Below are positions 3,049 through 30,752 of a DNA stretch of 64,000 bases, in pieces; the first letter of the stretch is position 1, and each line of letters opens with the position of its first letter. The notes below the pieces were generated by a model that saw nothing but the letters and a program-made list of their open reading frames with translations, did not search any database and was not told the DNA's origin. The translations under genes were made by a program, and so were the position numbers. The stretch covers positions 3,388,723 through 3,452,722 of the forward strand of contig NC_045145.1 in NCBI RefSeq assembly GCF_008831285.2, written 5' to 3'. This DNA is from Nymphaea colorata (lineage: Eukaryota; Streptophyta; Magnoliopsida; Nymphaeales; Nymphaeaceae).

Positions 3049-3138
3049 ATGATTCCAGTGGCTTTGAACGATGTAGCGTTTTCAACACACGCGGTTCTAC
3101 TGACAGGATTCACAGTTTTGCAAGTTTTAATCTATGAA
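3049..3138 (+). pseudogene. Cystinosin-homologue exon fragment
   Basis: A 90-bp exon-like block, preceded by TTGTAG and followed by GTAATT, encodes 30 residues including MIPVALNDVAFSTHAVLL and VLIYE. This matches the middle of plant cystinosin homologues (PQ-loop lysosomal/vacuolar cystine transporters, seven membrane spans). No neighbouring cystinosin exon is recognisable. Finding it about 550 bp after a CAT fragment, in the same orientation, shows that two source loci were joined here. Confidence 0.75.
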
Positions 3139-4989: not shown

Positions 4990-6330
4990 GGGAGGGTCCG
5001 TGCATGTGTGTGTAGCGCTTGGTAGCATCAAATTTTGTTGGTTCAATCTCGGCTTTGGATTTTGGTTTGAAATTCTCAATTTAGATCTTAACTCAGGTTT
5101 TTGGATCTAATTCGGATCCAAGAGTTGGATTTTAGATTTGAATTTTGTGTTTGGGTTCGGACATGGGTTTAGAGATTTATTTTGGATTGAATAGCCATGA
5201 ATTTGTTTTGGAACTTTGATTAGGTAGTTGAAATTTGGATTTCAAATAAAGTTTGGATAATTGAAGCTTAGCTAGGGACTTTTGGAATTGAGAATTGGAC
5301 TTGGAATCTAAAAATTTGAGCTAGGAACGACTAGAAAATTTGCGCTAGAATTTTGGAGATAGTTTGGGTTTTGGGATTTGAAACCGATTGGAAAATTTCT
5401 TGGGAGCCTTTGAACTGGAATTTGGTTTAGAAGCCAAAATCTAGAAATTGGATTTGAAATAATTTGAGAAGCGAATCTTGGAGGTCAAAATTTTGGGCTT
5501 TAGAATTATTGGGACTCGACAACCTCAAAATTTTTGAAAAAATATTCGGATTTGAGCATTAGTGCTTCAAAATTTTGCTCCCAAAATGGGTACTGAAAAT
5601 TGGATAATCTAAATCGTAGTCATGAGGAATTTTCTTGATTTTTGGATAATTGGAATTTCGGTTTGGGAATTTTGAATAACTTTGGATGTTCGTTAGACTC
5701 TAAGATTTTTTAGATATTTTTTTTCGAAATCCTGAATTTTTTTTGAGACTTTGGTTAAGGTCATGAAAATTTCTTGATTTTGACTAGATTGTAGATTGAG
5801 AATTAATTCCAAGATGAAATTGATTTTGAGAAAATCCCAATCATTGAATCCATTTTAAATCGACTTTAAAAGTTCTCAGTTTTTGTAGTTATTTTGAGAA
5901 ATTTTTGTATTTTTCCTCAAAAAATAAGTGAAGTATTTAAGTTTTTCTCGTAATATGACTTGACTTGATCACGGTAACAACTCCAACTCGACTCGCTTAA
6001 GTTTAGGGATTAAATTTTAGGAAATGCTTTCTTGGCCAGGAAAATCGCATTTTTGAATTTCTCTAGGTCTCTTTGGGACGAAGTTCTTCCTTTTAGAAGC
6101 TTGGTTTTGATTAGAATGCTGGATTTTTGTAAAGTTAATAGTTTTTGGAATAGCTTGAATTTTGGAAATACGTATTTCCAAATGTACTTTGTAAAAAATC
6201 GGATTCTTTTTGTAGTTATTGGTTTCGACTACCCATTGGGCCAAAATCCTTGCATTTCGATCAAGAGATTCCTAACTAAATTAGGCATTTTGGTTATTGC
6301 TGTTTTTCAAAAACATAGAAATTTCTGAAA
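4990..6330 (+). repeat. Dispersed repeat, copy 1
   Basis: A T/G-rich block (TTTGGATTTG-like runs) that is clearly homologous and in direct orientation to 20440-22235. Shared landmarks are the stretch from 'attgaagctta' through 'gatagtttgggttttgggat' and 'gccaaaatctagaaattgga' (near 5256-5460), and the segment after 'ttaggaaatgctt' near 6018. It carries no coding sequence. It is probably part of a long terminal repeat or a non-autonomous retroelement, but I see no TG...CA ends or primer-binding site. Confidence 0.6.
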
Positions 6331-6849
6331 ATTTTTAGAAATCGAAATAAGCTTGATTTGATTGCTTTTTCCATTTATAAGATGGACTGCGCTCATGACT
6401 TGAGTTGGGGAATGGATTTGGTTAGCTATGGAGTCGGATCCACCTGCCCCATTCAAAACAGAGTTTAGGTTTGGATTGATGGTGTAAATCTCGAGAATGC
6501 ATGCACATATGCTTTTCACATATACATTTTTGTGTGGCGACCCAACTAGACATCATTCCTAGCTTTTAAGAAACCCTACCCCACACGTTGGCTCGCTTTC
6601 TTATGTAGGAAACTGCGATAAATACATATACGTGTTATATTTTTTACTATATATATTATATAATATACGTATCTTAGTATTATAATAATAACATAACATG
6701 TACATACGATGTTTATAACATATTATGTTTACAACTTATATTATATTTTGGTCACATAATGTATATAATATACTATATACATTATTATGCTATACATCAT
6801 TCCAATAATAAAATGGATTAGTGCCTCGCTAAAACTTCTTAGTCCGCTG
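6331..6849. other. AT-rich spacer
   Basis: No gene is seen. 6620-6800 is extremely AT-rich with TATA/ATAT blocks. The segment near 6535-6600 may be a further remnant of the preceding repeat. Confidence 0.4.
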
Positions 6850-7470
6850 GTGGTCAGACGCATCCGACTAAAATGTTATTGATTCGCACCCGACTCGCGT
6901 TTGACGCGAGTCCGGTGCGGTGTCTGTGCATTTTTGTCCTTTCTTTTAATTGTAATGAAAAACTATGGCGGGCACGACTTTTTCGTTTTTTCCCTTTGCT
7001 AACGCCTTCAGCCTTCTTAGTTCTCTCTCTCTCTGCTGCGATCCCTTCCACCGGCGGTAGCTTCCTCCCTGAGTGTCCGGCGACCGGTGTTGGCACTTGG
7101 CTGCGATCGTCTTCTTCCGGCTGCATCAAATTAGTTCAGGTAGTTTGTTTTTTCCAGCCGTCTGTCTCCCTCCATTGTTTTCCCCATTTCATCTTCTTCC
7201 TCAACCCTCTTTCAATGCCCTTGTTTTCTCTCGGTTTATTGTTACAGCCATTGCCTTTCCTTGCATAGCAGAAGGATTTCCTTGTGCGTGGAACTTGACC
7301 CACTCGGTTGCCTGCAGAAAGCGAGAGCAAGTGCTGCCACTCTTTGTACCCAAGGTATTGCAGAGTTCCACGATCAGATATTTTTTTCTCCTAACCCGAA
7401 GGGATGCAGTTATCTTTAGTGTTAGGGTTTCTCTTTTGTGCTTGGATTGATGTATCTCGTTTATTTGTTT
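6850..7470 (+). other. Orphan 5'-leader-like segment
   Basis: A GC- and CT-rich stretch, with TTCTCTCTCTCTCTGCTG near 7020, CCGGCGACCGG and a CTTCTTCCGGCTGC tract, looks like a plant transcription start region and untranslated first exon. A possible splice donor follows CCCAAG near 7351 (GTATTG), and an intron-like T-rich stretch with 'agggtttctc' follows. No coding exon of any recognised gene comes after it; the next gene is the UGT pseudogene 1 kb away. It may be a detached or captured 5' end. Confidence 0.3.
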
Positions 7471-8427
7471 CTCCGATCATGAATCGAGTTTTTTGTTGCT
7501 CTAATGATCTGAAATCTTGATTGGAAACTCGGAATTCGTCTGAGATCATGAGGGATTTGGGGCTAATTGTTTCGGTAGCCTTCAGAAATTTAGGTGTATC
7601 ACCTGAAAACCTGTTTCCTAGGTTTCAGGTTTGGATGTATAGATTATTAAGCAGGGCGGATTAGTGCCATTTTGATCAGCCTTTACTTTGTAAACTTATG
7701 TAAACTCCATGCACCGACAGTCTTTGTGTCTTACATAGAGTGGTTCATAAACTAGATACTCAATGATACTGAAAATTGTTAATAAGGGAAAGCAGGACCT
7801 TTTATTTACACAAAGCAAGATCGCTTTAGATGAGCAAGAACTGTTAGCTATTATGAGAAAATGTTTATTGTGGATTCCTTGGAGGTTTTTTTTTTGTCAT
7901 ATATATTATATACATATTATTATTATTACAATAAATTAGTAATAATAATAATAATAAATACTCTCGCCGCACCGCCGCACTTAAATTTTTTGAAATGTGC
8001 CGCGCCGGCACCCGCACCAGCACCCACACCACGCACCTTGGTGGCATGCTTAACCTCAAGTTTTTTGAGTCGTTCGTGTGCAGCCCTACTTCTAGGTAAT
8101 GCTTTCCTAAAAAAAGTTGGAAAAGAGTCGGAGGTTTTAATGTAGAAAACAAAAGAAGACATATTCATGTGATCAAAGGCAAACTACATATTAAAGAGGC
8201 AACCGGACATGCATATTTGAACAGTAGATTTCTTTCACTTCGGATCCCACACAACCCTCGGATCTTCCAAGGCTACCAATCACCTCCTTATTAGCAGATC
8301 TTCCATGTTGGCTCTTGAAAGTTTCCCCTTCTACCAACATATAACCAGGTTTGGTTATTAACTTGCCCTTCAATTCAATAGCTTTCCAACATTCTTATCT
8401 GTAGCAGCCGTCACCGAGTCGTGCACT
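7471..8427. other. Spacer with ATT/AAT microsatellite
   Basis: No gene is seen. An imperfect trinucleotide tract of ATT and AAT units lies at about 7911-7962. The AT-rich block before it has TATATA patches. Confidence 0.5.
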
Positions 8428-9821
8428 ATGAACTCTAAGAAGCCATGGATTGTGATGGTTCCAAGTGCGGGCATGTGCCATATCTTGCTTTTCATCCGCT
8501 TCACTGAGACCATCGTCGAACACGGCTTCAACGTCATCTTTGTTGCCACCAAATCCACAGTATCATATGCAGAATGACACCATATTTCTGCATTCCTTTC
8601 ATCTTCTCCAGGCGTACATCCTCTATGGTACGACCCTCTTCCCCTGAATCCTAACTCTTCCCACCACAATACCACTGATCCATTCTGCCTTCAGTTTGAA
8701 ACCTTAAGCCGCTCGAAGGACGTACTTCGCCCTCTCCTAAGCCAACTTGCTACGAAGGCCCCTATCTCTGCCTTCATCTTCGACATCTTCCTTGTTTCCT
8801 GCATGTGCGACATCAGAATCACTCTATACCGAACTACGTCCTCTTCGTGTCCTCTGCAACCATGCTTGCTTTCAGCATCTGCTTCTCAAGCTCTGAACCA
8901 AGTGGCGACCTGACCGAGGAAATTCAGATACTGGGAGTCGGGGCCGTCCCGTCTTACTGTGTTCCGCCGGCCGTAAAGAACCACGAGCACCTCTTCACCA
9001 CCCTCTTCCACAAGAACAACAGAGCTCTCAACAGAGCAATTGGAGTTCTCATCAACACATTCTCCAAGTTGGAGGCAGAGTCTTTACAGGCACTCACTGA
9101 TGGGAAGCTGGCACTGATGTCGTTGCCGAGCATGTTTCCCATAGGCCCGTTGGTGGGTGGAAGGCCCGCCGGCGGCGAGGGTTGTGCCCATGTGACCGAG
9201 TGGTTCGACGAGCAGCCTGAGGGCAGTGTGCTGTATATCAGTTTTTGGGAGTCGTCACGCTCTGGCGCCTGCACAGGTTGTGGAGTTGGCTAATGGGCTG
9301 GAGATGGCTGGCTGCAACTTCTTGTGGGTGCTCAAGACCAAGATTGTGGACAAAGAGGAGAGCCAAGGGGAAGCTCAGAATGTGTTGCCTGATGGGTTTG
9401 TGGAAAGGGCTAAGGCCAGGGCCCTGGTTGTAGACAATTGGACTGACCAAGAAGAAGTGTTGGCCCATGGCTCGGTCGGTGGCTTCCTCAGTCACTGTGG
9501 TTGGAGCTCAGTGATTGAGGCAGTGTGGCATGGGGTGCCCATTTTTGAATGGCCACAGGCTGGAGATCAGCTGCTCAATGCTATGGCTGTGGAGAGGAGT
9601 GGACTGGGGATCTGGGAAAGAAGTTGGAGAGAGTGTAATGGAGGAGGGCTGCTCAAGGGCCAGGAGATTGGCAGGCAACTGAGACTGTGGATGGGAGACA
9701 AGCATCTCAATGAGAGCACGCCCAGCAGCTGCGGGAGGAGGCTAGGAGGTCGATTAGCATGGCTGGAGACTATCGTAGGACTCTGGCCGAACTCATGGGT
9801 AGATGGAAAGCAGTTGCGTAA
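8428..9821 (+). pseudogene. UDP-glycosyltransferase (UGT708-like) pseudogene
   Basis: An intronless family-1 plant glycosyltransferase, closest by eye to the UGT708 flavonoid C-glycosyltransferases, about 464 codons as is usual for the family. The N-terminus has VPSAGMCH with the catalytic-type His. The PSPG sugar-nucleotide box runs from about 9440 to 9572 (WTDQEEVLAHGSVGGF, HCGWSS, GVPIFEWPQAGDQ). The reading frame is broken by an in-frame TGA at 8575-8577, a frameshift between about 8800 and 8835, a one-base gain in the T run at 9242-9246, and another frameshift near 9705-9715. The family-like C-terminus ends at TAA 9819-9821. Homology runs from end to end, so this is a former gene that decayed by point lesions, not a captured piece. 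No product is expected. Confidence 0.88.
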
Positions 9822-11750
9822 TCTTGGATCTTGTTCTCTAAAATGTGTAGATGTGGAGGATGAAAATGGAACGTCAATAAATTTGGTGTAGAAATTTGTG
9901 TTGTAGGAATGGCTATTTTGGTGGGTTCAGAAGTATGCGGTTCAGTTGCTTTTGTTTAAGAAGCTATGTGAACTCAATTTATGCTCCTTCTGATTTGGTT
10001 TCCATCATTTGTTTCTTTGTTTCTTTTTTCATTTGAATGTAATGGCATTGCTTGTTAGGTTTCCAAAGAAAAATGTAATCACATTGCTTCAAGCATTTCT
10101 GTGTTGTTCCTTGTGCAGTGAAAATGTTTCTTGTATAATGAAAAGGTTGTAGAATTAGATTTTTCTAGCTGGCCGCACCAAACGCTGGAAAGAAATTGTG
10201 GAGGACGAGTGTTCTCTCGTCACCAGAGAACGCAAAAACTGTTCCTACAGCTTGTAACGCCCAAACAGTATGAGAGAGAGACAGAGAAAGCTGTATGAGA
10301 CATTATGCCAGAGACAACAACCAAACAGTTTTAGTTCAATGGCTAACATGTTTCTTTTTTGGTGATCTAACCTTACTTTAAGAACAGGTTGATGTAAAAC
10401 ATGTATTAGGTTGAACATTTTTTGGGGTTTAGTAGTCCTTTCTAGTAAGCAAAGATGAACAGCTCCCAGTAATATCAACATTTTACAGAACTTCACATTT
10501 TTCATAAAAACAACTAGAACCAAAGCATGCTTACGTTAAATATTTTTTTAAATATATTAACATGTTTATATTTTGTTTAAAATGTTTTAATAAAACTTTA
10601 ATGGGCTTGGTTTTTGTCCCTGACCTATTGGTATGAGAAAGAAAGACAGTGGGCCCCTCTAACCAGGTTTGGCTGGTGCAATCCTCTGTCATTCATAGCA
10701 CAAGTCCTGATTCATGCATCGGGGCACACACACACATGAACCGTGGTGCATTTGTCAGAATAGATCAATCCTAGCTGGAATGATCCAACTTTTATATATA
10801 TATATATATTGCTGATTTTTCCATTCTAGGTTGGATGGAAAAGTCTTTTGGCCTCTTACTGCACACCATTTGTTGCATTGCATTGTAATAAAAATCCAAT
10901 TTGAGAGGTGATCTAATATGTCATGTATAGCAAAACACCACAGGCCAAAAGGGCTAAGATGAGAACTTTGAAGACCCATGGTAGGGGTGGGTTTGGATCG
11001 AACTAAAACAAGGCCTGGTCTATGTTAAAGGCACCAGGTTGGCACCTGATGGGTATTTAGTATCTGACCCAACTCGGGCCCTGGACCAAGCCTATTCGAT
11101 ATCTTATTTTTAATATTATTTTATTTAAATAAATATAAAATTATATATGTTATAAAAGTATATTTTTTAATCGAGCCCAATTGTAGGCAATCCAGATGGA
11201 CTCAGGTGCGGGCTACAGTCACGCTATGGCCTGGCCAGATGCCTAGTCCTGGCCAAGATCCTTGCAGATGGGGCCATCTCGTTGTTTTATCAAGGATCAC
11301 TCTCAGTTCTAAGTTCATTTTTAGAGAAAAACATGCAAGTCTTGTACTTGGTAGATGATGACATTTGAGTATACACTATCTAAGTAATTAATAAGTATCA
11401 AACTAAACAACTTCTTAAAGGGTCTCCTCATTGAATATGAATCTATTTTTTAAAATCTAATACCTAAATGCAATCCAAGACCCAAATGATAACCCAATAA
11501 AACTGGTCCAATTGGAACACTCAGAGTTGAGCATAATAAGTTTGCTATGGGTTTTAGGCCTAGATCTCTTGGTGCCCTTAATAATTGACCCAGATGATTA
11601 GTGACATATTTGGATTGGGTTTAGATATTTGGCAAGGAAAATCTCCCACTTCATTTCTTGTCGGCCTAAACAGGAGAAGAGTTGAGGCTGGGCTCGACAC
11701 CTGAAATACTCAACTGGAGCTCGATTCCAACTCAAAAAATTAGGCTCAAG
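9822..11750. other. Spacer, no gene
   Basis: No gene is seen. 10260-10520 holds only a weak antisense open frame with no family match. A short TATATA run lies near 10794-10810. 10980-11740 is degenerate repeat-like sequence ending at the hAT insertion site. Confidence 0.5.
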
Positions 11751-11940
11751 CTAGGGCTGCACAACGAGTCGAGCTACTCGAGCTCGATCGTTTAAGCTCG
11801 ACTCGTAAGTTAAACGAGCTGCTTCATTAGTTAAACGAGTCGAGCTCGAGTTCACGAGTCAACTCGTTTAACTAATCGAGTCGAGCTCGAGTTCACTCTA
11901 CAGGACTCGTTAAAGCTCGACTCGGCTCGATTAACATACC
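11751..11940. repeat. Left subterminal repeats of the hAT element
   Basis: After the terminal repeat come dense, overlapping TCGAGCTCGA / GAGTCGAG / AAACGAGCT motifs in both orientations. Such arrays are typical transposase-binding regions of hAT elements. Confidence 0.7.
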
Positions 11941-11959
11941 GGTTTTAAAAAAATCGGTT

Positions 11960-12270
11960 CAGCTGTCTCACTTTTCTCAGGCGGGAAAAGAAAAAGTTTA
12001 GGCTAGGGTTTCTTACTTTCTTTTTTTCGTTCTCCCTCTTTCCGACTCCGACTCTCCCTCTCTCTCTCGGTCTCTCCGTCGACCGTCGTCTCCGACAGTC
12101 CGACTTCTCTTCTCTTCTCCGCCTGACACCTGTGCTCTGCACAGCTGCCGCTGCCGCCCTGCTTGTGCTCTTCTTCTCCGCTTGTGCTCTGTGCTCCTGC
12201 CGGCTGCCGCTTCTCCTCCTTCGACCAGCTTCTCCATTGTGGTTGTTCCAGGGTGGGTGTCCACTATTCA
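11960..12270 (+). other. CT-rich untranslated first exon of the hAT gene (putative)
   Basis: A strongly pyrimidine-rich stretch with CTCCCTCTCTCTCTCGG-type runs and the plant-like 'aggctagggttt' lies just inside the left end, where hAT transposase transcripts usually start. The open frames on the opposite strand are Arg-rich composition artefacts. A long intron up to about 14.6 kb would separate it from the transposase coding region. Confidence 0.4.
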
Positions 12271-13654
12271 ACCTTTTATTATCTGGATTAATTGTATCTT
12301 ATATATGAAACCGTTGGAGTCACTGTAGTTGTCATTGTATGCGCTTCTCTAGTGAATGTAAATTACTTGTTATACAGTTTACTTATCTAGGATCATCTAT
12401 CTTCTTGATGTCGATATTTTGGATTTCTGTTTCTGGAGTTTTTGAACAAGACTTTATTTTCTGGCTGAGAGATTTGAGACATAGGTTTTGAACTTTAAAA
12501 CATGTGCTTGGGGGGCCAAACATTTCAACCGTCTGCATTGCACTCGATAGGAGTGTGAACTTTCATGATGTTTAGGTCTTCAGAATTTAAGTCTAAAACT
12601 TAGGTAACGAAGCTGCCTCAGGTCATGCCTGTCATATACAGCCTTAATCTCCAAAATGGATGTCTGACTGATTACATTTCTCTAGATCATATACTCACCT
12701 ATTTATCATGGTACTGCATATGGTTGTAATGCTTGTCCACCGGTACTATTTATCATCATCCTCATCATTGTGCCTTGCCCATTTGCATAAGGCTGCCCAA
12801 ACTGATTATATTTCTTCATACAACATTACTTTTGATCTTAAATGTCGGTAAACGTTTAGTTTTTTCATATTTAGTAAGCAAGTTGGGCGATATCCATTCG
12901 GCTATTGATACTAAGACTTCTTGATGATGGTTCATCCTCGTCTTTCTTTTATTGTTTTCCACTTTTGTAATACATGGTTTCTGGATATTAAACAATTTTT
13001 ATGTGTTTTCCCTGGGAGTTTAAGATGTTAGTTTTTTTTAGTGTAGAGCAACTGGAGTAGCAATCATAGCACCTAGCTGATTAAGTACTTTTCTCCCTTT
13101 TATATTATTTGAGTTTTCTCCTAGTTTAGCACGTCTGAGAACAAGGAATTAAGGTCGCTTTTCTAATTGTAGAGCCTTCCCTTGCCTCATAGCAAATCAT
13201 TTTTTGTTTGCAGGTTGTTGCAACAATCATGCCTGAGGATTATCGATACATGAAGGTGAAAATTTAGTACTTGTTTAAAATATGTGCTTGGTTCTTGAAT
13301 CGATTGGGCCTCTTGCCTATTCAGGCTTTCGTTTGCTTTCCCCCAAGTGTAGGCTGAGGTCAAAACAAGCTCAAGCTAAGCAAATCCAGAGCAATATTTC
13401 AAAACACAAAGATGCTATGACTTGGCATTCACTAAACTTCCCTAACCAAACTACAAGTCAACTCACTCTGGGTCATTTCTGTTTGTTTTTCATGTGTGTT
13501 GCAATGAAGAATCACCAAGCTTCACCAAGCATATGAATGTTTAGGCAGTATAGGTCAAAGCAAGGTTTTAGTTTTGTGCAATTTTAGTCTTTTTTTTCTA
13601 TGACTTGCATAAATTTCCATAACAATGTATCTAATAAAAATAACTCTCTTGCAG
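12271..13654. other. hAT interior, mostly non-coding
   Basis: No recognised gene. One exon-like block at 13214-13255, bounded by TTTGCAG and GTGAAA, encodes 14 residues (VVATIMPEDYRYMK). It may be another captured exon, but I cannot assign it. Confidence 0.3.
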
Positions 13655-13798
13655 GGAGCTTTACAGTAACAATTTAAGTGGTGCAGTACCTAATGAACTT
13701 GGGAATCTTTCAAGCCTGGTTAGTTTGGATCTTTACTTGAACAAGTTCGTTGGACCCATTCCTAGCACTTTGGGCAAGCTTACAAAGCTGCGATTCCT
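13655..13798 (+). pseudogene. SERK/BAK1-type LRR kinase exon, captured
   Basis: A 144-bp block bounded by TTGCAG and GTAAGC encodes two 24-residue leucine-rich repeats ([20 protein letters not shown], then [10 protein letters not shown]...GKLTKLRFL). The length and phase match the repeat-exon layout of plant SERK co-receptors, plasma-membrane LRR kinases in brassinosteroid and immune signalling. No other SERK exon (signal peptide, leucine zipper, kinase) is visible nearby. It lies within the hAT element upstream of the transposase, so I read it as a transduplicated exon. The frame is open and both splice sites look usable, so it could be spliced into a chimeric transcript. Confidence 0.82.
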
Positions 13799-14644
13799 GT
13801 AAGCAAAAACTGTTTTCATATCTTGATCTGCAAATGTTAATTTGATTATACTTTTATCTTGGTCTTTTGGGCACACATTGTTTGCAAGGCTGATGATGAT
13901 ATTTTCTTATACTTTGCAAGGCTGTTGATAATATTTTCTTTGTTGTTAATTTTGCATTCCAAAGCACATGATATGTGTTAATGCAGCGTGTGATGCATGT
14001 ATGGAAGTATGATATGCATACCTATCATACTGTGTGTTCTTTGGTGGTAACACTTCAAAAGTCTTCTTCTCTTTCCACCTTCTCAACACATTTGCTTTTA
14101 GTGCAACCATGATTTACAGCATGTCACAGTCATGTATTTAACTTAACAAAACAGTCTAATGTCATTTGAAAAATGCTTGATGTCATTGTTTTTTTATTTT
14201 TTTTTTGAACAAGTATTTGTGTCATTTGTGAAATGAAAAGGCAGTTGATGTCACAATGATTGGTCTGGATGACATCATATGGAAGGTTCTAATGCTTCTT
14301 TAAGGATTTCTGTTAAAACGCTCCAATGGTATTTGGGTATATTTCATATTTTTTCTTTTCTGTTTATTTATTGCTTTGTTGATTTTCTACTATGTTTTTA
14401 AATAAATCGATGTGAACCTGTTCTTATCAATCAATGCATGCAAGCAAAACTAAGTGTGGTTCAGTTATGCCACACTATATATATATATATATATATATAT
14501 GGATGGATGTCTTCTTTTGGTATTCCCTTAAATTGTAAGGATGTCTTTTGTTGGTATTCCCTTAGATTGTAATATGTTTCTGTTAAATTTCATGTTCAAA
14601 TAGGAGAAAAGCTTGAGCAGGAGGGAAGAACACTAGTTTGAAGA
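13799..14644. other. hAT intron-like region with tandem repeats
   Basis: No gene. It holds an AT microsatellite at about 14476-14500 and, directly after it, a 34-bp unit repeated twice (14505-14538 and 14539-14572) with three or four differences between copies. Confidence 0.6.
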
Positions 14645-16842
14645 ATGACAAATTTAGGAAGAAATATCATTGATAAGGGCAAACAAGTATGTGATTCGAG
14701 ACAGAGTTCAGATGATGTCCCAAACGGAGTACATTCCTCTAATGAAACTCCTATGGATTCGCAAGACACTGAAAATGAAGGAGTTTCAATAGATGCTCCT
14801 GAAGTATGTATAAGTGGTGCAAAAAGATCAAGGTCAAAGACTTCATCAATATGGAATGATTTTGATGAGGCCATTATAAATGGTATCAAAAAAGGAAAAT
14901 GTAAGTACTGCAGTACACTATTTTTAATAAGTGCAGGAGGATCTACATCATCAATGAGAAGACACAAATGTTTGACACGTTTTGCTAACAAAAAACAAAC
15001 GATTTTAAGTTTTAAATCTGAGAATACTTCTGATGTCACGAAGAAGCTTATGGAAATAAGTTCCAACATCAATGCTCAGGCAATAAGAGAGATAATTGCA
15101 AAACTAGTGGCAACCGGAGAACATGTTTTTTCCATAGTAGATAATTGTTGGTTTAGATTCCTTCTTAGGCTTGGTTTTCCTAATTGGGTGCCAGTTTCAA
15201 GAACGACAGTTAAGAGAGATGTTATGAAATTATATGAAGATGAAAAGAAAAAATTGCTTCATGTCTTGAAGGGTGTTGATAAGATTGCTTTGACTACAGA
15301 TATGTGGACGTCAAACCAACAACTTAGATATATGGCATTAACAGCACATTTCATTGATAAAGAGTGGAATATGCAACAACGTATCATCAACTTTACTGAA
15401 GTTGAGCCACCTCATACTGGGTTAGTTTTAGCAAATGTAATTGCTAAGCATCTTGCAGAGTGAGAGATTAAAAAAAATAATATCCATTACAGTTGACAAC
15501 ACTTCATCAAACGATGTTCTTGCTAGAAAATTAAAAGATAACATGGAAAAAAGTGGTATCAGCTTGTATTATGGAGGTAAATTTTTTCATGTGCGATGTG
15601 GTGCACATATTTTGAATCTGATGGTACAAGATGGGTTGAGTGCCATTAAAGATGAAATCATTAGCATTAGAGATGCAATTAAATATATCAAAATGTCACC
15701 TTCAAGACTCCATGGTTTTGCTGCTGCAGCTAGAGAGTTGGATCTTTCAACGACAAAGAAGTTTGTGTTAGATGTACCAACTCGATGGAATTCAACATAT
15801 TTTATGTTGGAAACAGCTCTTGCATATAAAGATGCTTTTGCAAGGTATAGCATGGAAGACCCAGGTTTTGTATGGTTGCTTGGACCTAAGGATTGGGAAA
15901 AAATAGCAGTGGTATGTGATTTTCTTCAGGTTTTCTATGATGTGTCCACCTTATTTTCTGGGTCATCGTATGCAACAGCAAACTTATATTTTCTTGAAAT
16001 TTGGAGAGTTAAAGAAATATTGCAGGAAAAGGTTGAAAATGAAGGTGGGTTTATGAAGGCAATGGCAGTGAAAATGAAGGAGAAATTTGATAAATATTGG
16101 AAATCTTGTAACTTGTTAATGATTATTGCATCCATATTAGATCCACGCGTGAAACTCACATTATCAGAATTTTTTTTTTCAAGAATTTACCAGTCAAGAG
16201 AAGAAAGGGAAGAACAAATGCAAATAATAAAACAATCTTTACAAGATGTTTATGAAAGTTACATTCAAAGAAATGAAGTGGATGTCAATATTTCTACTGC
16301 ATCAACTACTTCCTCTAGTATTCAAGGTCGAGAGAGTCGAGACGCCCCACGTAGTGGAACAGAGCTATTTTTTGAGTTCTTAGGTAAAGCTGAGAATGTT
16401 GCTTTTCAGGTCACCAAATCTGAGATAGACACATATTTGGAGGATGGATTGATTAAGCATGATGATAATGGTGATGAAGATTCTTTCAATATTTTGCAAT
16501 GGTGGAAGGATAAGGAATCTAAGTATCGAATTCTTTCACAAATGGCGCGTGATCTGTTGTCAATTCCAATAACTTCTGTTGCTTCAGAAAAAGCTTTCAG
16601 TACAGGAGGTCGAATTATTAATGATAGTTGTAGTTCATTGATGCCAAAAACAGTTGAAGCTTTGGTTTGTTTGGGTAATTGGGTAAAGAATGATGATGAT
16701 CCAATGCATGAAGTTTTAACAAAAGTAAGTATGTTTTGAAGAAATTGTATTCATTAAATATTTTGTAAATAATTTGTTAATTGACTATATGTATTTCTTT
16801 CAGGTTGAGGATGAATCAAGTGAATATATATCATTAGAATGA
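14645..16842 (+). pseudogene. hAT transposase (BED zinc finger, hATC), one frameshift
   Basis: Starts at ATG 14645. The first frame has a BED finger at about residues 75-112 (CKYC...MRRHKC) and the first catalytic Asp in TTDMWTSNQ (about residue 219). It stops at 15461-15463. Homology continues at once in the +1-shifted frame from about 15465 with ITVDNTSSND (second Asp), RCGAHILNL and the C-terminal hATC dimerisation region (WWKDKESKYRILSQMARDLL, then SVASEKAF). A last intron fits 16725-16803 (GTAAGT...TTTCAG), with a 13-codon final exon ending in TGA at 16842. Without splicing the frame ends at 16739. The family is the plant Ac/Daysleeper-like group, which cuts and pastes hAT DNA in the nucleus. 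The single frameshift removes the full-length enzyme; apart from it the frames are open, which suggests that activity was lost fairly recently. Confidence 0.9.
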
Positions 16843-18046
16843 TTCAAGTTATCTCTTGGTAATGCTTTTTTTTTTTTTTTTCGTTGTTTTGTTTTCTTTT
16901 TTTTCTTGATCTAATGTGATTCTAGTGTCTGTTTCAGTTGCCTCTTGTAGTTTTCTGCTTTGATGTCCAATGTTCATGACTCATGATTGTGTGAAGAGCT
17001 TCTATATGAAGTGAGTATGTGAATTCGAGTTAGTGGTACCGTTTCTTAACTTTCCTTTACCAATTAAGAGCAGTATTTTAAATTTGGCAATAATGTGACA
17101 TAGCCTTTTTTTCTATGTCATTCAGGAGGTGGCTGTTATTGTGGCTAGAGGAAGGGATGATTTATTTTCAAGTTTTGGTTCCTTGAGAGTTGAGAGGAGT
17201 GAGGGTTCTCAAAACATTTGTTCACTTATTTTTACATACTTATGAACAAGCTAATTATGTTTAAGTCCCATTCATTTGGAATGAATTTGATGGACTAATT
17301 TTCTGCACTGTCATTTTATTTGTTTATGATACACTCTATGAAACTTTGTAACTTGTAAGTTCAGAAGTCCATCAGGGACCTGCTGTTCTTAGAATCGCTA
17401 TGGTTGTGAACTTGCGATGGCTGAGGAATTGGGACTTGAGATGGCAATTCGCTCATATGTGAAAGGTGGCAAAACATCTATACCTGTTCAACAACTTTCT
17501 GCCTGCACGTTGAATGCTTTCCAAGCAACTGATGAGTGATGACTCATCTATTGCATGTATGTGGTCTATTAGTAATGTACTATTGTTGGTAGTCTGGTGC
17601 TGCTGTTGCATACTAAGATATTGATTCATATGTGGTCCTCATGGAAAACCAAGTTGCCAAAGGAAAGTTGGTCTATTATTGTTCACGTGTCTCCAGCATG
17701 TGATTGAGTTCTGGTAAGTTATTTACAGTGAGTTCCAAATGTGTGTGTGTGTTACTTATATTTCATTCTTCTTGTGATTTGCAATGTATAATTTTTCTTT
17801 ATTATTATTACTAGGCCCAATTTGAGTAAGTCATGGTTTTTAACTCAATTGTATCAGCTAAATGCTTATGTGGACTTCATTGCTTTCAAACGGGCTCCTT
17901 CTTTTGTTAGTACTCCTACAAACTGTAAAAAGACTTTTAGATTTCACGTTTGGTGCATGCCTTTACATAATTTTGACTGAAGATATACATTTAAAGGTGT
18001 AACTTTTGCCACTAAATTTGAACGATTGGTCACTTCATCTTTGCAG
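16843..18046. other. hAT interior downstream of the transposase
   Basis: No assigned gene. A T-rich stretch lies at 16866-16910. A 40-codon open stretch at 17417-17539 (MAEELGLEMAIRSYVKGG..., ending TGA) reads like real coding sequence and may be a further captured exon. I do not recognise it. Confidence 0.35.
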
Positions 18047-18335
18047 GTCTGGAGATTGGTGGTGAAATGAATCTGACTTCTGGAATTCAAGTGGCTCAAC
18101 TAGCACTTAAACATCGCCAGAACAAAAAGCAGCAACAGCGAATCATAGTATTTGCTGGAAGGTTTGTGTAACTAACATAATTTGACATACCATGAAAAGT
18201 CTTTCGTATTCATTTTCTGCTTGAAATTCTGTGGTTGTAGTCCAATTAAACATGATAAAAAAAAGTCTTGGAGGCAATTGGAAAGAAGTTGAAAAAGAAT
18301 AGTGTTGCTCTTGTCATAGTTGGGTTGAGTCACTG
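18047..18335 (+). pseudogene. RPN10 (26S proteasome ubiquitin receptor) fragment, captured
   Basis: Exon 18047-18161, bounded by TTGCAG and GTTTGT, encodes part of the VWA domain of RPN10/PSMD4 (GLEIGGEMNLTSGIQVAQLA, LKHRQNKKQQQRIIVFAG). The next exon starts at 18241 after TTGTAG with SPIKHDKK, then shifts frame within the A8/T region. The homology resumes as LEAIGKKLKKNSVALV. RPN10 binds polyubiquitin in the proteasome lid/base. The VWA start, the rest of the domain and the ubiquitin-interacting motifs are absent. The intron is kept, which excludes a processed copy. Its place inside the hAT element points to DNA-level capture. Confidence 0.85.
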
Positions 18336-19050
18336 GGTTACACTAATCAGCGTCAACACAAGTTTGTGTCAGAAGATAGATTCATTGGTTGAATCCCTTA
18401 ATTGAATGAGATTATGTTTTTTGCTAAATACTTACAGTGATGATAAGACTGGTTCATGAGTTCATTGAAAAGGTCAAGGCCCATATCATGATTGGCAGTA
18501 CAGTACTCGTTTTCCCTAGCTTTTATCTTGATGAAACTCACTTAAGGCGTTGATTAAACCAGAGATCCTGAGGAGTCAAGGGCCTGCCAAGTTCCAGTTT
18601 AGCACATGACAGAAAGCGTAAAAGCTGAACTCATCCTTTAAACTTTTTGGGCCTTTTTCCATGTATCTTATCTAACAGTTTGATGAAGCTTGAATTGGTA
18701 TATTATGTTCCTAAAGTTACGATATTATTGCCCTAAAATGTAGACATGAAAGTGCTCAGCATGCGGGCCCCAACAACAGATTTGGTTTGTAGGTGATTGT
18801 GATTGATGGCCGGTCAAAGTTGTAGATCAGTTGAGATTATGTATCTCAAGTTCTCAACTGATTAACTGTAAGTATATTGGTCTAAATTTTTTATTACTGA
18901 TTCAGTTTCTCTCTGACAAAAAGGTAAAGATGATTCTACAGGTCTACTATCAACTAATTGAGCTTCATTTTGCCTTTTCTGCAGTTTTCTTTCTTTCATT
19001 TCTTATTACCATGTTAATATTTCTTCCTTCTTTTTAAATTTTGTGCTCAG

Positions 19051-19548
19051 TGGTTATTGGGCACCTACAACACACATATTCTTTTGATAGTATTCCTTGC
19101 GGTTGTTTCGATGCTGCTAGCGGGTTTCTTCATATACCATGCTCATCTCTGTCTGTCAAACACCACGACTAATGAGGTTTGTTGAGATCTTAATGCGAAG
19201 ACTGCTTGCTTTTTTTAGGTGACTTTATCTGATGAAATCTTGTATTTTGAAATTTACAGACTTTTAAGTGGGCAGACTACATAAGCTGGAAGACCCGAGT
19301 AAACAAGGCTAAGGCAAGCAGCGCAGCCCTCAAGGAGGGTGGGTGCTTGGAGGGGTGGCTTAGTGTATGGCAAAAGCCGTTTCCAAGAAAGAAGGTGCAT
19401 CTGGCCCTTCTCTGCCTTCCGGTGGGAGGAGGAGGAAGCTGCTGCTTCTAAGGAGAACCTATATGATCAACGGATGTCGTATAATTTGTTTGAGATCATT
19501 TGTCCACTATCAGAAAGAGCCTCTTTTTCACGGAGGAAAGCACCGTGA
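19051..19548 (+). pseudogene. DHHC S-acyltransferase C-terminal fragment, captured
   Basis: Exon 19051-19176, bounded by GCTCAG and GTTTGT, encodes [20 protein letters not shown] through [11 protein letters not shown], the last membrane segment plus the TTxE motif of plant DHHC protein S-acyltransferases. A second exon starts at 19260 after TTACAG (TFKWADYISWKTRVNKAKAS). A frameshift near 19400-19440 separates it from the C-terminal tail (ENLYDQRMSYNLFEIICPLS) that ends at TGA 19546-19548. The catalytic DHHC-Cys-rich domain is missing. The intact family palmitoylates membrane proteins. The fragment lies in the sense direction near the right end of the hAT element. Confidence 0.8.
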
Positions 19549-19820
19549 TGCCCACTTCATGCTGGGACCTAGGCACTCAGATGATCCATTTTTTTGGCAC
19601 CATGTTTTTTTCATATTTTGAGTTTGGGACCTAGGCAATCGTCAAAATTTGATGGTGATGGTTACAATCTGCTTCCTGGTTGGATCATGGTGTCCACCTC
19701 CATGTGCTATGGTGATTGCCTTGGCAATGCTGGCTCGTGACGAGTTGGGCATGACCTATGGACTATGGTGATGTTCTGGCCACAGACGTTCTTGTAAATT
19801 TACTACTACCGAGCATTTGT

Positions 19821-19864
19821 ATGTGTCAAATGATGTTAATATATGTGTCAAATGATGTTAATAT
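19821..19864. repeat. 22-bp tandem duplication
   Basis: The unit ATGTGTCAAATGATGTTAAT plus AT occurs twice head to tail with no difference. It lies just before the right subterminal region of the hAT element. Confidence 0.85.
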
Positions 19865-19869
19865 ATGGC

Positions 19870-20094
19870 GTGGAGTTAATCGAGCTTAAACGAGTTGTTC
19901 TTGCGTCTGTCTCTTCAAGAGCAAACGAGTTTATCGAGCTTAATTGAGTCGAGCTCGAGCTTGACTCATGACTATCGAGTCGAGTTTGAGCTATTGTAGT
20001 CGAGTTATTGTCGAGCCGAGCTTGACTCTTACTTAGGCGAGCCGAGTTCGAGCTAGCCGAGCTCGGGCTCGACTCAGCTCGTGTTCAGCCCTAG
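19870..20094. repeat. Right subterminal repeats of the hAT element
   Basis: Dense GAGTCGAG / TCGAGCTTGACTC / GCCGAGCTCG motifs mirror those at the left end and lead into the right terminal repeat ending CAGCCCTAG. Confidence 0.7.
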
Positions 20095-20439
20095 GCCTCA
20101 GGCTTAACTTCATAATGCATGTCTATAACTGTACTCTGATAAACTTGTTCATTTGATCTTCAAATTATCTAACTAAAATCTGCCACTTACTTTATCAAGG
20201 TAACAAGACTTTGAAATAATGACTAAGATTGGATGTGAAAGAGAGGGTGTCATCCTAATGGGAATTAATAGCAAAAATTGGAGAGAGAGAGGGAGAAAGA
20301 GATACACACGATAAAATAGAAATATATGGCAAAATTTGAGGACAGACAAGGCGGGAGAGTCACCCTGCATTAGTAGACAAGGTTTAGGTTTTTCTCAAGC
20401 TTGACAAGCTATGTTTTTCATATGCCTATACAAGAATTG
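20095..20439. other. Spacer
   Basis: No gene. A short GA-rich run (gagagagagagggagaaaga) lies near 20282-20301. Confidence 0.5.
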
Positions 20440-22235
20440 GATTTTGGAATTTTTTTTTAAGTTTATTTTGAATAGAGACTTGGATTTGTTTAGAAATATT
20501 TTGTATTTCAGGAATTTTGAAGATTTTAAATTGTCTTTGGAATAGAATTATTGGATTAATGCCAGATTTAGTAGTTGAACTTTGATTTTACCCCAAAAGT
20601 TGGAACTTTGAATCGGTGAAATTTGGATTTTAAATAAAATTTGAACAATTGAAGCTTAGGTAAAGGATTTTTGGACTTGGAAGCTAAAATTTTAGGTAGG
20701 GACGACTAGAACATTTAAGCTATAATTTTGAAGATAGTTTGGGTTTTGGGATTTGAAACTGATTGGAAAAATTCTTGGGAGCATTTGAACTGGAATTTGG
20801 TTTTGAAGCCAAAATCTAGAAATTGGAGTTGGAATCATTTGAGAATTGAATCTTGGAGGTCGAAATTTTGGGTTTAGAATGATTGGAACTCGACAAATTC
20901 AGAATTTTTGAAAACATATTTGGATTTGGCATTTAGTGCCTTGAAATTCCGGTCAATCTTAGTCATGAGAAATTTTCTTGATTTTGGGCAAATTTGAATT
21001 TTGGTTTCGGAATTTTGAATAATTTTGTACGTCCGTTAGACTTTAGGATTTTTTAGAGAAGTTTTTTTTAGAAATCCTGAAGTTCTTTTGAGACTTTGAT
21101 AAGGACATGAAAATTTGCTTGATTTTGAGTAGATTCTGGGTTGAAAATTGACTCCAGGATGAAATTGATTTTGAGAAAATCTCAATCATTGAATCCGTCT
21201 GAAATCGACTTTGAAAATTCTTAGGTTTGTAGTCATTTTGAGAAATTTTGTATTTTTTCTCCAAAACAAGTGAAGTGTTTTTAAGTTGTTGTCGCAATAT
21301 GACTTGATCATTGTAGCGAATCCTACTCGACTCACTAAGATCTTGGCAAAGATGAGTAGGTGCATTTATGAAGTGAGTGCATGCATGCTTCCATTAAAAT
21401 AAACTACATCTTTATTCACTTCTCATTTCATTTAAAGGGTGAGTGGTTCATTCCACCGCCCTAAGAAAGGCCACTTGACCCCTCCCCTCGGTGACCCCCT
21501 CCTTGGGTTTTTACATAACATGCTTCAGGCCTTTTTATGGGCCAAAGTTAGAGCGTACTGGGATGTAACAGTGACCACTCCAAGGTTCGAACCTGAGTCC
21601 TTAAAGGAACCAGACCATCTTACCGTCCAGTACCACCCCTTGGGGTATCTCTATTAATACTTCACTCTATTTCTCTCCATACACAATTTAATTGAATCTC
21701 ACATAGACATTGGTTCACCTTGGAAGTAAGAAATGTTGGACGTCCTCCAAGTCTATTCTCGATGTCGAGAAGGCTTTTAGGAGTAAGGTCCAGGAGCTTA
21801 GGTTTTGAAATCTTCGTTTTGGAAATCCATAGAATTCCAAAATTTTATTTGACAAATTGTGAGGGATTGATTAAATTTCATTTTTGGCTCGACCGTGGGT
21901 AAAAATGGGTTTATTTGATCAAAACCCAAATTTAGGGACTAAGTTTTAGGAAATGCTTTATTGGCCAGGAAAATCACATTTTTGGATTTCTCTAGATCTT
22001 TAGAAGCTTGGCTTTGATTAGATTGCTGGATTTTTTTAAAGTTAATAGATTTTGGAATAGCTTGATTTTGGATATACGTGTTTCCAAATGTACTTTGTAA
22101 AAAATCAGATTTCTTTGTGGCTATTGGTTTCGACTACCCATTGGCCAAAATACTTGCATTTCGATCAAGAGATTCTTTTAGAAACTATTTAAATTAGGCA
22201 TTTTGGTTAATTGCTGGTTTTCAAAACCATAGATG
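20440..22235 (+). repeat. Dispersed repeat, copy 2 with internal insertion
   Basis: Homologous and collinear with 4990-6330. The two parts that align are about 20550-21320 and about 21930-22235. The roughly 600 bp between them (about 21335-21925) has no counterpart in copy 1, where the two parts abut near 5995. It therefore represents an insertion here or a deletion in copy 1. The insertion contains a SINE-like block. No coding sequence is present. Confidence 0.6.
21436..21655 (-). mobile_element. Candidate tRNA-derived SINE
   Basis: Read on the minus strand, the block starts near GGGGTGGTACTGGACGG, which resembles a tRNA A box. About 35 bp later comes GGTTCGAACC, a perfect pol III B box. 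The remaining 150 bp is GC-richer than its surroundings. The body is not a tRNA: no cloverleaf or CCA-end stem is seen. The layout fits a tRNA-derived plant SINE, but there is no clear 3' tail or target duplication. Confidence 0.4.
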
Positions 22236-25229: not shown

Positions 25230-25457
25230 TGTTGAAAAGATGTGTCTTATCAAGATAAGGCGGATAAGGTGGATCAATCTTCTTAAGATCTTATCTAAAG
25301 CTAATCCTTGATCTTAGGCAACATTAGAGGTTTCTATGTATATCACCAAAATCAAAGACTATATATATTGTGTAGTCGACAATGAATAAATCAACTTCTT
25401 CCTCTTCTCTCGTTTTCCTCTTTTCCCTCTTGTTCTCTTCTTTCACAATCTTTAACA
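25230..25457 (+). repeat. 5' LTR of the copia element
   Basis: Begins TGTTGAAAAGATGTGT and ends ATCTTTAACA; 228 bp. Contains a TATATATATT stretch near 25362 that could serve as TATA box, followed by CT-rich DNA. Matches the 3' LTR base for base by eye. Confidence 0.95.
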
Positions 25458-25469
25458 TGGTATCAGAGC
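25458..25469 (+). other. Primer-binding site (initiator tRNA-Met)
   Basis: TGGTATCAGAGC directly follows the LTR CA end. It is complementary to the 3' end of plant initiator tRNA-Met, the standard primer of plant copia elements. Confidence 0.93.
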
Positions 25470-26299
25470 AGAGTAAAGATGAGCAATGGCATATGCTGTC
25501 TTTGCAGAAATTTCCAATCTGACAGACCAAGGGATCGTCACAGGCCAGAGGTAATCCCAGCCATCGTCACAGGCCAGAGCGTTGTATACTTCGGTGATCA
25601 TTCCCCTTCATAGTGCCCAAAGGGCATCCTTGGGTCGTTCGACTGGAACCAACGCCTGAGCAGGCAGGAATCGAGGAAACTTGGGCATCCTTCTTCCTGT
25701 GCGACTGAACAGGGGCAAAACCAGACTTCCGCCCTCCGATCATCTGCTTGCCGCTGTTTTCACTAGAGTTCATTCACCATGAAATTGCTCAAGCAATGTC
25801 TCCGGTGAGTGGCGGTTCCAACAGACATGAGCTCGACCTGTGTGGTGGTCGGTACCCGCCGGAATAGCCCGATTTCTGGCCTCCTGTCCTGTTATTGCCT
25901 GTTTGGGCGTTAGTAGCTTCATCAATCGCTAGCGACAATTCCAGCGATCGACGGCGTTCTTGGCGCTCAGACTGACACTCCAGCCTAAGGCGACCGTGCT
26001 GGATCCTGAGCCGGCCGGAATTGAAGTTTCTTCTGGCGGTTCCCTGTTCTGCTGCAGGCCTCCTATTGCAGCGCCTTCTAGCGGAGAGTCCTGTTCCACT
26101 TTTCAATCAGAAAAACATGTTGTTCCAGAATTCTTTCTTCTGAACAGAAAAGTGATGTTCTGGTTTCTGTTCTGCAACACTCGGTGACTTCTGAGTTTCT
26201 CCGGCTTGAGGTGCAGGCGACCCGCGTTGCTGCTGCTGCATCGCTGTTGCTGTGGCAACGATAGCTGCGACTGCAGAGAACCTCACAGGTTTGGGGAAG
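25470..26299 (+). other. Untranslated leader of the copia element
   Basis: About 830 bp between primer site and first gag ATG. GC-richer than the flanks. Open frames on the minus strand here (for example 25789-26106) have no family match and are taken as chance. Confidence 0.6.
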
Positions 26300-29200
26300 A
26301 TGGCAGAAAGGGGAGAGGTCATTCTAAAGGAACGCAAAGATGACGACATTAGTACAGGAAGCCCATATTATGTTCATCATTCTGATGGACCAGGTACCCC
26401 TTTAGTCTCTAATGTCTTGACAGGAGATAACTATATGATGTGGAGGAAGGCCATGACAATGGCCCTTTCCGCCAAAAACAAGTTATGATTTGTCGACGGA
26501 TCCATCACCAAGCCTAACAGTCCTATGTTCCTCAAAATTACGTGGGAAAGATGCAACAACTTGGTTCAATCTTGGATTTTAAACTCCATCCATAAAGATA
26601 TCTTGGCTAGTGTAATTCATGCCAAGACTGCTGCCCAAATTTGGAGTGATCTTGAGGCTCGATTTTCTCAAGCCAATGGCCCACGCATTTACCAAATACA
26701 ATTTCAGATAATGAATTGCAAGCAAAATCAATCGTCTATTGCAGCTCATTACACAAGAATGAAGGGATTATGGGATGAGTTAGCCCTCTATGCTAACATC
26801 CCTGATTGTTCGTGTGGTACCATGAAGGCTATTGAGAATCTTCACCAACAAGATCAACTTATGCAGTTCTTGATGGGCCTTAATGATAGCTATGCAGCCA
26901 TTAGAAGCCAACTCTTGTTGATGGATCCGCTTCCTACTATAGCCAAAGCTTATTCTCTTCTTATTCAGGAGGAGAAACAAAGGGATGTGAATATGGTACA
27001 TGCTCAGGAAAAGGTCTCTATTCTTGCAATGCAGCCTTCACCACAAATGTATGAAAGAAACAAAAACAGTCAGACCAAGGAGAGAGGAAGACCACGTATG
27101 AAATGCGAACATTGTGGTAAAATTGGACACATCAAAGCTAAGTGTTATTTTCTTGTTGGTTTCCCTAACAGGTCTGGTTCTTCTAATGCATTGACAAAGC
27201 CAAAGGCTAACGCTGCCCTAGGAACTGCATCCAACGATCAACCCAATGAGCAACTATTCAAAAAATTCCTTGACTTCATGGAGAACTCTAATCAAGGTAC
27301 CATTGAACCCAGAGTTAACCTCTCAGGTAAATACTCCTCGCCCATTTCATGTCTTAAACAATCATGGATCCTTGACACCGGTGCAACCCACCATATCACT
27401 AACGTTATCTCCAACCTTTATGAACCCATCATCACCAATCACCCTCCTATCAGTCTACCAAATAGGTCCAAAGCCAACGTCACCCATATAGGTGACATTC
27501 ATTTGAGCCCTAAGATAACACTGAAAAATGTTCTTTATGTTCCTAGCTTTGCATTCAACTTGATATCTATTCCTAAACTCTGTAGTGATTTAAGATGTGA
27601 TGCAAAATTTAATGAGAACTCTTGTGTGGTGCAGGACCGTCACTCGACGACTATGATTGGAACGGGTAGATTGCAGAATGGATTGTATGTCCTAGATGAA
27701 ACAAATCTCAGCATAAACTTAGCTACCACCAAATCTGCTCCATGGCATCTTCGGCTCGGGCATGCTTCTGATTCCAAACTTTCTATTTTATCTCGTTTGA
27801 ACCTTATTGACACTTGTAGATCTGTTGATACATGTGATATTTGCCTTGTTGCTAAGAACACTAGACTTCATTTTCCCAACAGTACTATTTCAACACATGC
27901 TCCTTTTGACTTAATTCATTGTGATGTGTGGGGAAGTTATCACACGCCTTCATTGACTGGTGCACAATATTTTCTAACTATAGTTGATGATTTTTCTCGA
28001 TCTACATGGATTTATCTTATGAGATATAAATCTGAAGTTTTTGGAGTCATTAAAAATTTTGTCGCACTTATTGAAAACCAGTTTCGAACTAGAATCAAAA
28101 TTCTTAGAAGTGACAATGGAACTGAATTCTTTTCACAAGAGATGAATAACTTTCTTCATGAAAAAGGCATTGATCGTCAACATAGTTGTGTTGCGACTCC
28201 TCAACAAAATGGTGTGGTCGAACGCAAGCATCGAGACCTCTTAAACATGGCACGAGCATTGATTTTTCAAGCTAAACTACCCATAAAATTTTGGGGAGAA
28301 TGTGTCACCACTGCTGCTTACATTATCAATAGGTTACCATCTAGTGCATTAAATAATAAAACTCCATATGAAGTTTTATACAAACGCCCACCAAACTACA
28401 AACATATGCGTGTTTTTGGATGTCTATGTTATGCCTACAATATTCATAAAGATCACAAGTTTGACTTAAGGGGAAGGCGATGCATATTTCTTGGATATCC
28501 ATATGGTCAATCAGCTTACAAGGTTTATGATCTTGAAAGTGGGTCGTTGTTCACCAGCAGAGACATCAGATTTTGTGAAAATCATTTTCCATATAAAAAT
28601 GAAGTGCACACTGGGGACAATGAACAAGTGGTTCTTCCTTTACCATTCAATGATTATGTCTCAGGAGAACATGAGTTTCTTTCAAGCCCAAGCAAACCTC
28701 TTCTAGATGATGAGACCAACCCAGATCCCATTCCTCAATCCATCGAACCTACTCATAATGATTCAATCCAGCTTCGCAGATCTATGCGACCTAGGCATAT
28801 ACCAACTCATCTAAAGGACTACAAATGTTTCTCAATCTTGCCCAGTTTCAGCCATTTGTTGAAGAGTGAAGGGACAAGCCCCACAAAAGGTACTCGTTAC
28901 CCGATTGCACAATGTCTTGATATCACTAACTTCAATTCCAACTACAAGTGTTTCATGTCTACCCTCCTTGAGCAATGTGAACCTTCATCCTTTGCCCAAG
29001 CCATGCAGGACCTTAGATGGCGTGATGCTATGAAGGCTGAAATTGATGCATTAGAAGCCAACCATACCTGGACTGTGACGAAACTTCCTCCTGGCAAAGT
29101 TCCCATAGGCTGCAAATGGGTATTCAAAATCAAATACCAATCTGATGGCTCTATCGAGCGATACAAGGCCCGCTTAGTTGCAAAAGGGTATACACAAACA

Positions 29201-30517: not shown

Positions 30518-30524
30518 AGGGGAG
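30516..30524 (+). other. Polypurine tract
   Basis: GAAGGGGAG lies immediately before the 3' LTR, where plus-strand DNA priming occurs. Confidence 0.85.
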
Positions 30525-30752
30525 TGTTGAAAAGATGTGTCTTATCAAGATAAGGCGGATAAGGTGGATCAATCTTCTTAAGATCTTATCTAAAGCTAAT
30601 CCTTGATCTTAGGCAACATTAGAGGTTTCTATGTATATCACCAAAATCAAAGACTATATATATTGTGTAGTCGACAATGAATAAATCAACTTCTTCCTCT
30701 TCTCTCGTTTTCCTCTTTTCCCTCTTGTTCTCTTCTTTCACAATCTTTAACA
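30525..30752 (+). repeat. 3' LTR of the copia element
   Basis: 228 bp, TGTTGAAAAG to CTTTAACA, identical by eye to the 5' LTR, followed by target duplication CACCA. Confidence 0.95.

Follow-up and report, generated by a model that had tools for sequence, protein, structure and literature searches.

The window analysed here is a stretch of 64,000 nucleotides of the Nymphaea colorata genome (C8:3388723-3452722) and contains, at positions 11752-20093, a transposon of the hAT superfamily of 8,342 bp in which a transposase gene stands between pieces of DNA that are found again at other loci. All comparisons were made in this single genome (407,766,735 bases, 783 contigs), and the copy numbers given for the family are lower bounds. 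The borders of the element were set by comparing the ends of 12 copies. The initial annotation of the window had reported matching hAT ends; both borders are indeed family ends, but the true ones lie 1 bp inside, at 11752 and 20093. The 5' end (TAGGGCTGCACAACGAG...), with its subterminal repeats and leader, occupies 11752-12252, and the 3' subterminal region and end (...GTGTTCAGCCCTA) occupies 19873-20093, both recognized by family matches and end comparison; these and all other parts of the element described below are on the + strand of the window. The ends of the family, as read over the 12 copies, are T-AGGG(C/G)TGCACAACGAG and CTCGTGTTCAGCCCT-A, and the short terminal inverted repeats TAGGG...CCCTA are common to these copies and to three further ones, L050, L051 and L053. 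End divergence was seen at the left end of copy L023 and at the right end of copy L039, the latter being located by approximation. A 550-bp query from the 5' side matched at least 40 genomic places (the best 40 of 954 candidates scored) and a 510-bp query from the 3' side also at least 40 (the best 40 of 676). Within the 5' leader region, the stretch at ~12210-12256 was found again at other places with 89-98% identity.

The transposase gene lies in a backbone stretch at 14380-17488, in which stretches of 14475-17334 are common with other copies at 92-96% identity. It is read as two open frames: an N-terminal part at 14645-15463, which ends at an in-frame stop, and a C-terminal part at 15441-16739, which carries the hAT-like RNase-H (PF14372, 3e-30) and hATC (PF05699, 8e-28) profile matches. 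The hAT transposase announced by the initial annotation is thus present, but the zf-BED match is weak (E 0.12 for the window and 0.028 for an open-frame relative, both below the curated cut-off) and the frame is broken near 15,461-15,478 by a stop and a frame change. The transposase of the window copy is therefore most likely dead and, as it is broken, the copy can probably no longer move unaided. In all six copies first compared (the window, L023, the C4 copy, L034, L039 and L041) the frame is interrupted within the coding block. A search with the transposase protein gave at least 101 matching stretches (the best 99 of 814 candidates scored), and in four relatives, 87-88% identical, the frame runs uninterrupted by stops over 691-699 aa. 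The transposase of an open-frame relative also matched Hermes structures, with a best E-value of 2.6e-14.

Six segments of the interior matched non-hAT loci at 89-95% identity, with E-values ranging from 1e-17 down to 0, and they total 4,259 of the 8,342 bp, half of the element. The donors are separate loci of the same genome, five of the six on contigs other than that of the window. Where the initial annotation had seen three captured genes, capture itself stands, but there are six donor loci, and a CHY/RING fragment and two others of 74 and 403 bp had been overlooked. Four of the six pieces could be assigned to a gene (CHY/RING, SERK, RPN10 and DHHC). Introns are present in captured pieces, which indicates that these were copied from DNA. 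Divergence from the donors is 0.030-0.065, except for the 74-bp piece (0.104).

The first piece (12254-13363) is a fragment of a CHY/RING-type E3 ligase gene with its donor at C5:18086722-18087965(-), 93-95% identical. It lacks ~135 bp of the donor, the gap falling at an AATCT overlap, and holds an exon within ~13213-13258 that the donor also has, with 44 of 46 bases identical. The donor alone encodes RING (2.6e-7) and zinc-ribbon (PF14599, 9.7e-17) segments, and the zinc ribbon reached 8.6e-27 when the window exon was placed between the donor segments; we take this combination to be that of a CHY/RING, RCHY1-like E3 ligase. It is followed by the 74-bp fragment (13402-13475), which comes from C9:18276256-18276328 (89%) and bears no gene name, and by a fragment of a SERK-type leucine-rich repeat (LRR) kinase gene, including intron sequence (13474-14354; donor C8:18477155-18478282, 92-94%). 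The SERK piece contains one exon near 13652-13800, and ~260 bp of the donor are absent near 14257-14265. Its donor, 15 Mb from the window on the same contig, encodes a kinase domain (4e-42) and leucine-rich repeats. SERK1 and SERK2 align with the whole of the 48-residue window exon, although the lowest E-values were those of long many-repeat LRR receptor kinases (GSO1, FLS2 and others). A query covering 13640-13880 of this piece found three genomic places.

Downstream of the transposase gene, exons and introns of an RPN10 gene occupy 17479-18320 (donor C9:24619056-24619913(-), 95%), with a 2-base insertion in the second exon relative to the donor. This identity comes from protein comparison, in which the donor locus and also the window exon alone matched; an NCBIfam scan for RPN10 gave weak matches, none near the cut-off. 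The 403-bp fragment (18425-18827, from C3:18536354-18536764(-), 94%) has no gene name, and among the reading frames listed for it and for the 74-bp piece none gave an assignable gene. The last piece (18895-19845) is the 3' part of a DHHC-type acyltransferase gene whose donor lies at C3:15788271-15789263 (94/91%); it lacks ~60 bp of the donor, with the gap at a T run (TTTTTT). This naming is the weakest of all, the donor matching the end of the domain (PF01529, E 2.5e-4, below the curated cut-off) and no match in PDB being obtained at E up to 5. A query at 18851-19600 found three places, one of them a 43-bp backbone match. The SERK, RPN10 and DHHC exon fragments named in the initial annotation are therefore real by protein comparison, DHHC being the least secure, and the fragment search proposed there found the source of each elsewhere in the genome.

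The pieces are set into the backbone as a mosaic. Backbone separates three of the five pairs of neighbouring pieces, and CHY/RING, the 74-bp fragment and SERK are contiguous without it. One backbone remnant at 18317-18390 matches a sister copy on C11, which has 55 bp extra in the middle of the stretch, and another at 18846-18893 matches the C3 copy L023. The region 16742-17488 is also common to the window and the C11 sister (94%). RPN10 is absent from that sister, where ~250 bp of other sequence lie between the same two backbone points; we infer that the arrangement of the sister is the older state. An exon-like backbone stretch at 17361-17488, also in the C11 sister, may be an older captured piece. 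Ten junctions were read. RPN10 overlaps its neighbours by 6 bp (ATACCT) on one side and 4 bp (TAGT) on the other, and the 74-bp and SERK pieces overlap by 2 bp (CA). Fillers of 1 nt occur at two others (12253 and 18894), and the remaining five hold 18-38 bp of unassigned sequence, one of which is partly a 22-bp tandem repeat. This tandem duplication stands at the junction of DHHC with the 3' end (19820-19867) and the copies on C4 and C7 have the unit only once. Of the internal donor gaps in three of the pieces (~135, 260 and 60 bp), the first and the last fall at short repeats.

The search for other copies with the same ends, also proposed in the initial annotation, found many, and their interiors differ. 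Together with the donors, this upholds the claim of a hAT element with its own transposase gene and captured pieces of host genes. In the copies compared, the transposase block stays collinear and the differences lie before and after it. The block is continuous over 14475-17255 in the window and in the C4 copy (L026/L025, duplication AAGTTAAT), at 95% identity. Copies L039 (C13) and L051 (C11) are collinear nearly from end to end at 94.5-95.5%, lack the cargo of the window and are taken as the cargo-free form. L051 (C11:17965862-17972492) has a perfect target-site duplication (TSD), TCCATAGG, and shows a partial internal direct duplication of the 3' part of the transposase.

Part of the cargo is shared. 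The C4 copy and the C7 copy (L042) carry the tail of the same DHHC piece, and its exit junction into the 3' end is identical in the window, C4 and C7. The window and C4 also share differences from the DHHC donor (bases and a 7-bp insertion) and two base differences from the donor in an RPN10 stretch; in C7 a different part of RPN10, 120 bp long, is present. These shared differences and the common exit place the DHHC and RPN10 captures before the parting of the copies, and the DHHC cargo moved after its capture. Donors were traced in four copies (the window, C4, L023 and L050), on one side only in the last three, and non-family matches were present in the interiors of all four. The stretch of the C4 interior that was searched matches three non-family loci on C1 and C2; the reading frames of the two that were fetched gave no assignable gene, and the third is C1:25347973. 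L023, on C3, carries 1.8 kb from a locus on C14 that bears an AAA ATPase gene; we take this gene to be PEX1, but its best structure matches are CDC48/VCP. An 830-bp segment, partly from the AAA ATPase locus, occurs twice in L023, at 2236-3063 and 6787-7616 on both sides of the transposase (97.7%).

Two further relatives are nearly identical. L050 (C13:16590414-16597163) and L053 (C3) are both 6,750 bp long and differ by 1 base, and their duplications are perfect but different (CACACGGG and GATGGACG). The transposase frame of L050 is open over 699 aa, and the C3 locus likewise reads 699 aa without stops. Their cargo of ~1.05 kb comes from a C12 locus just upstream of a glycyl-tRNA synthetase (GlyRS)-like exon, the exon itself being excluded; this exon gave a Pfam match of 2e-5, below the cut-off, and matched a glycine-tRNA ligase structure at 8e-13. 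Such a pair suggests that a hAT with cargo moved very recently, and an element of this type may be autonomous.

The position and direction of the cargo follow a pattern. All six gene-assigned pieces (CHY/RING, SERK, RPN10, DHHC, GlyRS and AAA ATPase) are in the sense direction, for which a two-sided sign test gave 0.03 on a small sample, the regularity having been noticed afterwards and GlyRS being judged by the adjacent exon. The leader ends in CAG and an AG sits just upstream of the transposase start, suggesting a 5' intron between them. We propose tentatively, as a possibility, that an autonomous hAT carrying gene pieces is active in this genome now or was so until very recently, and that the family takes host DNA only into two non-coding bays flanking the transposase gene.

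Taken together, these results make it very probable that we are dealing with an 8.3-kb, now decayed copy from a hAT family that encodes its own transposase, and that this copy holds pieces of unrelated genomic loci, among them several host genes with their introns. Such an element could have arisen as follows. Excision or fork collapse would leave a break within the element; the DNA synthesis repairing it would switch to ectopic templates at short matches and so fill in each piece, and the element would later move together with the pieces acquired. These would be tolerated because of their placement in a putative 5' untranslated intron and beyond the transposase stop. The overlaps, and the gaps at repeats, fit template-switching synthesis without proving it.

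Several observations weigh against this interpretation. No convincing 8-bp TSD was found at the canonical ends of the window copy, where the left 8-mer GCTCAAGC (11744-11751) differs from the right 8-mer GGCCTCAG (20094-20101). By comparison, perfect 8-bp duplications were present in 10 of the 15 copies read (seven of the first 12, with one 7/8, one 6/8 and three unclear, and all three of L050, L051 and L053); the copies without a clear one are the window, L023 (C3) and L039 (C13). The degenerate 8-bp duplications of the initial annotation are not convincing: obtaining the 6/8 pair requires displacing each end outward by 1 bp, other shifts reach 7/8, and random flank pairs gave a best match of at least 6/8 over the same 25 offset pairs in 9.4% of trials. 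Overlaps occur at three of the 10 junctions and just two exceed 2 bp, which leaves end-joining of fragments as an alternative to template switching. No other hAT copy was found to hold the CHY/RING, SERK or C3:18536 piece (for SERK with a 241-bp query lying mostly in the 881-bp piece), and movement after capture, supported for the shared cargo, is not shown for these three. The shared differences, in turn, are counted as derived by assuming that the donor state is old. Ordering the captures by their divergence from the donors was too coarse, the ranges overlapping.

The insertion site was approached by joining the flanks of the element, as in the empty-site search proposed in the initial annotation. 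Three other places were found, two of which span the junction at ~70% identity (C1, E 8e-11, and C12, E 1e-6), the third matching the right flank only. At the matching point of the C1 paralogue the left 8-mer GCTCAAGC is present, but the expected second 8-mer was not seen in the right flank. Collinearity of the two places over the joined flanks nevertheless supports insertion here, as if the element had entered an older repeat.

The missing duplication would be accounted for if the window copy were a chimera, formed by recombination or gene conversion, of the left half of one copy (5' end, CHY/RING, SERK and transposase) and the right half of another (RPN10, DHHC and 3' end). The distribution of the cargo also agrees with it, the 5' cargo having been found only in the window copy and the 3' cargo partly common with C4 and C7. 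On the other hand, the window and C4 both have the unbroken transposase block together with part of the 3' cargo, and the two empty-site-like places are collinear over the joined flanks, as expected of a single insertion. The initial annotation had itself named ends from two different elements as an objection; the DHHC tail and the 3' end form one unit in two other copies, which speaks against it in that form, and a chimera of left and right halves seems to us unlikely. As to its other objection, that the fragments might be collinear at this locus in a relative lacking the hAT ends, the donors found in this genome stand at separate loci. The presence of several pieces within one element, and the overlap of some C4 cargo with sequence present at many places, could also mean that the gene pieces were brought by nested transposons, such as Helitron or Mutator-like (MULE) passengers inside the hAT. 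Against these, the junctions inspected showed neither the ends of a second element nor further target duplications (no repeat library was searched), short overlaps or fillers mark where the donor matches end, and the SERK and DHHC queries, with three places each, of which one DHHC place is the 43-bp backbone match, show that those pieces are not repeats. Nested passengers were rejected on the lack of second element ends at the junctions inspected and on the non-repetitive SERK and DHHC pieces, and we regard them as very improbable. The common direction of the four gene-assigned pieces of the window would be natural if they were ancient host genes in place, among which a hAT had inserted and since decayed, without any capture. 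Such an origin is difficult to reconcile with four unrelated gene pieces that lie within 8 kb, have copies of 91-95% identity at other places and are interleaved with backbone, and it is contradicted by the DHHC/3'-end junction shared with C4 and C7. Host genes in place were accordingly rejected, their probability being close to nil. Capture by a transposase-encoding hAT family remains the interpretation that we retain.

The rest of the window contains other features. A duplication of 80-83% links 5208-6319 with 20600-22233, just right of the hAT element, and its second copy is interrupted by ~590 bp. At 25230-30752, two 228-bp direct repeats, 100% identical, surround an open frame of 1,342 aa (26489-30517) that is gag-pol-like; this long terminal repeat retrotransposon, which we take to be Copia-like, is probably a very young insertion. 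Glycosyltransferase-like sequence, as we presume it to be, lies in two frames at 8700-9891, and an open frame of 536 aa at 56994-58604 (-) is presumably cytochrome P450-like. Rfam and tRNA scans of the window gave no matches.

The initial annotation had called the combination of a transposase and several captured genes in a hAT unusual. This is too strong, as the same is described for Hatvine-6 of grapevine (Benjak et al. 2008, PMC2528002), a family with 35 transposase-bearing copies, 17 of them with potentially functional open reading frames. According to the passages of that paper on the family, the transposase and the terminal inverted repeats (TIRs) are common to the copies and the rest is often unique, often matching genic (introns, exons) and non-genic sequence. 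A common transposase and TIRs with a variable interior were likewise found in the window, C4, L023 and L050, no gene being assigned for C4. Hatvine-6 differs in its host, its TSD of 9 bp and its TIR of 13 bp, and is likened here by description; its passages in PMC2528002 give no donor-by-donor map of junctions. A gene-collecting, transposase-bearing hAT is thus already known from grapevine, and the value of the present case is its resolution, not a new kind of element.

Other systems are related in part. Pack-hATs of maize and rice (Gisby and Catoni 2022, PMC8903248) likewise have hAT ends around pieces of coding genes. A distinct source locus for such pieces, a mark of Pack-TYPE elements, was also found for the window element, with its six donor loci, four of them with an assigned gene. 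Pack-TYPE elements are non-autonomous by definition in the sections concerned, whereas the water lily element has a transposase match, though a broken one; transposase-matching elements were filed there as autonomous, so that the window element would not be counted as Pack-TYPE. Maize Ds2 and Ds-l4 (2011, PMC3260210) contain filler DNA, some of it genic with introns, for which an origin in repair errors was suggested; they differ in being nonautonomous Ds types, and the passages concerned describe no transposase-bearing element with several donors. In the same source gene capture is called rare in hATs. Among animal Pack-TIRs (2021, PMC8277862), hAT is given as the commonest superfamily (208 of 370) and multicopy cases as rare (four). 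Gap filling and FoSTeST models are discussed there, with short matches at breakpoints supporting template switching, in animals and not in plants. By a term search, the word hAT is absent from the main text of a 2026 review of plant gene capture (PMC13317346), and no report of hAT gene capture in Nymphaea was found in the open-licence literature, among the matches listed.

The finding bears on how cut-and-paste transposons acquire host DNA. The Pack-hAT survey, in its account of the sorting, sets transposase-bearing elements apart (PMC8903248), so that the step before non-autonomous Pack elements is easily missed. One genome here shows a series of cargo-free backbones, differing donors around one transposase block, cargo shared by sister copies and near-identical copies with open frames. 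In these last, which carry cargo and whose transposase frame is open, new captures could be watched for.

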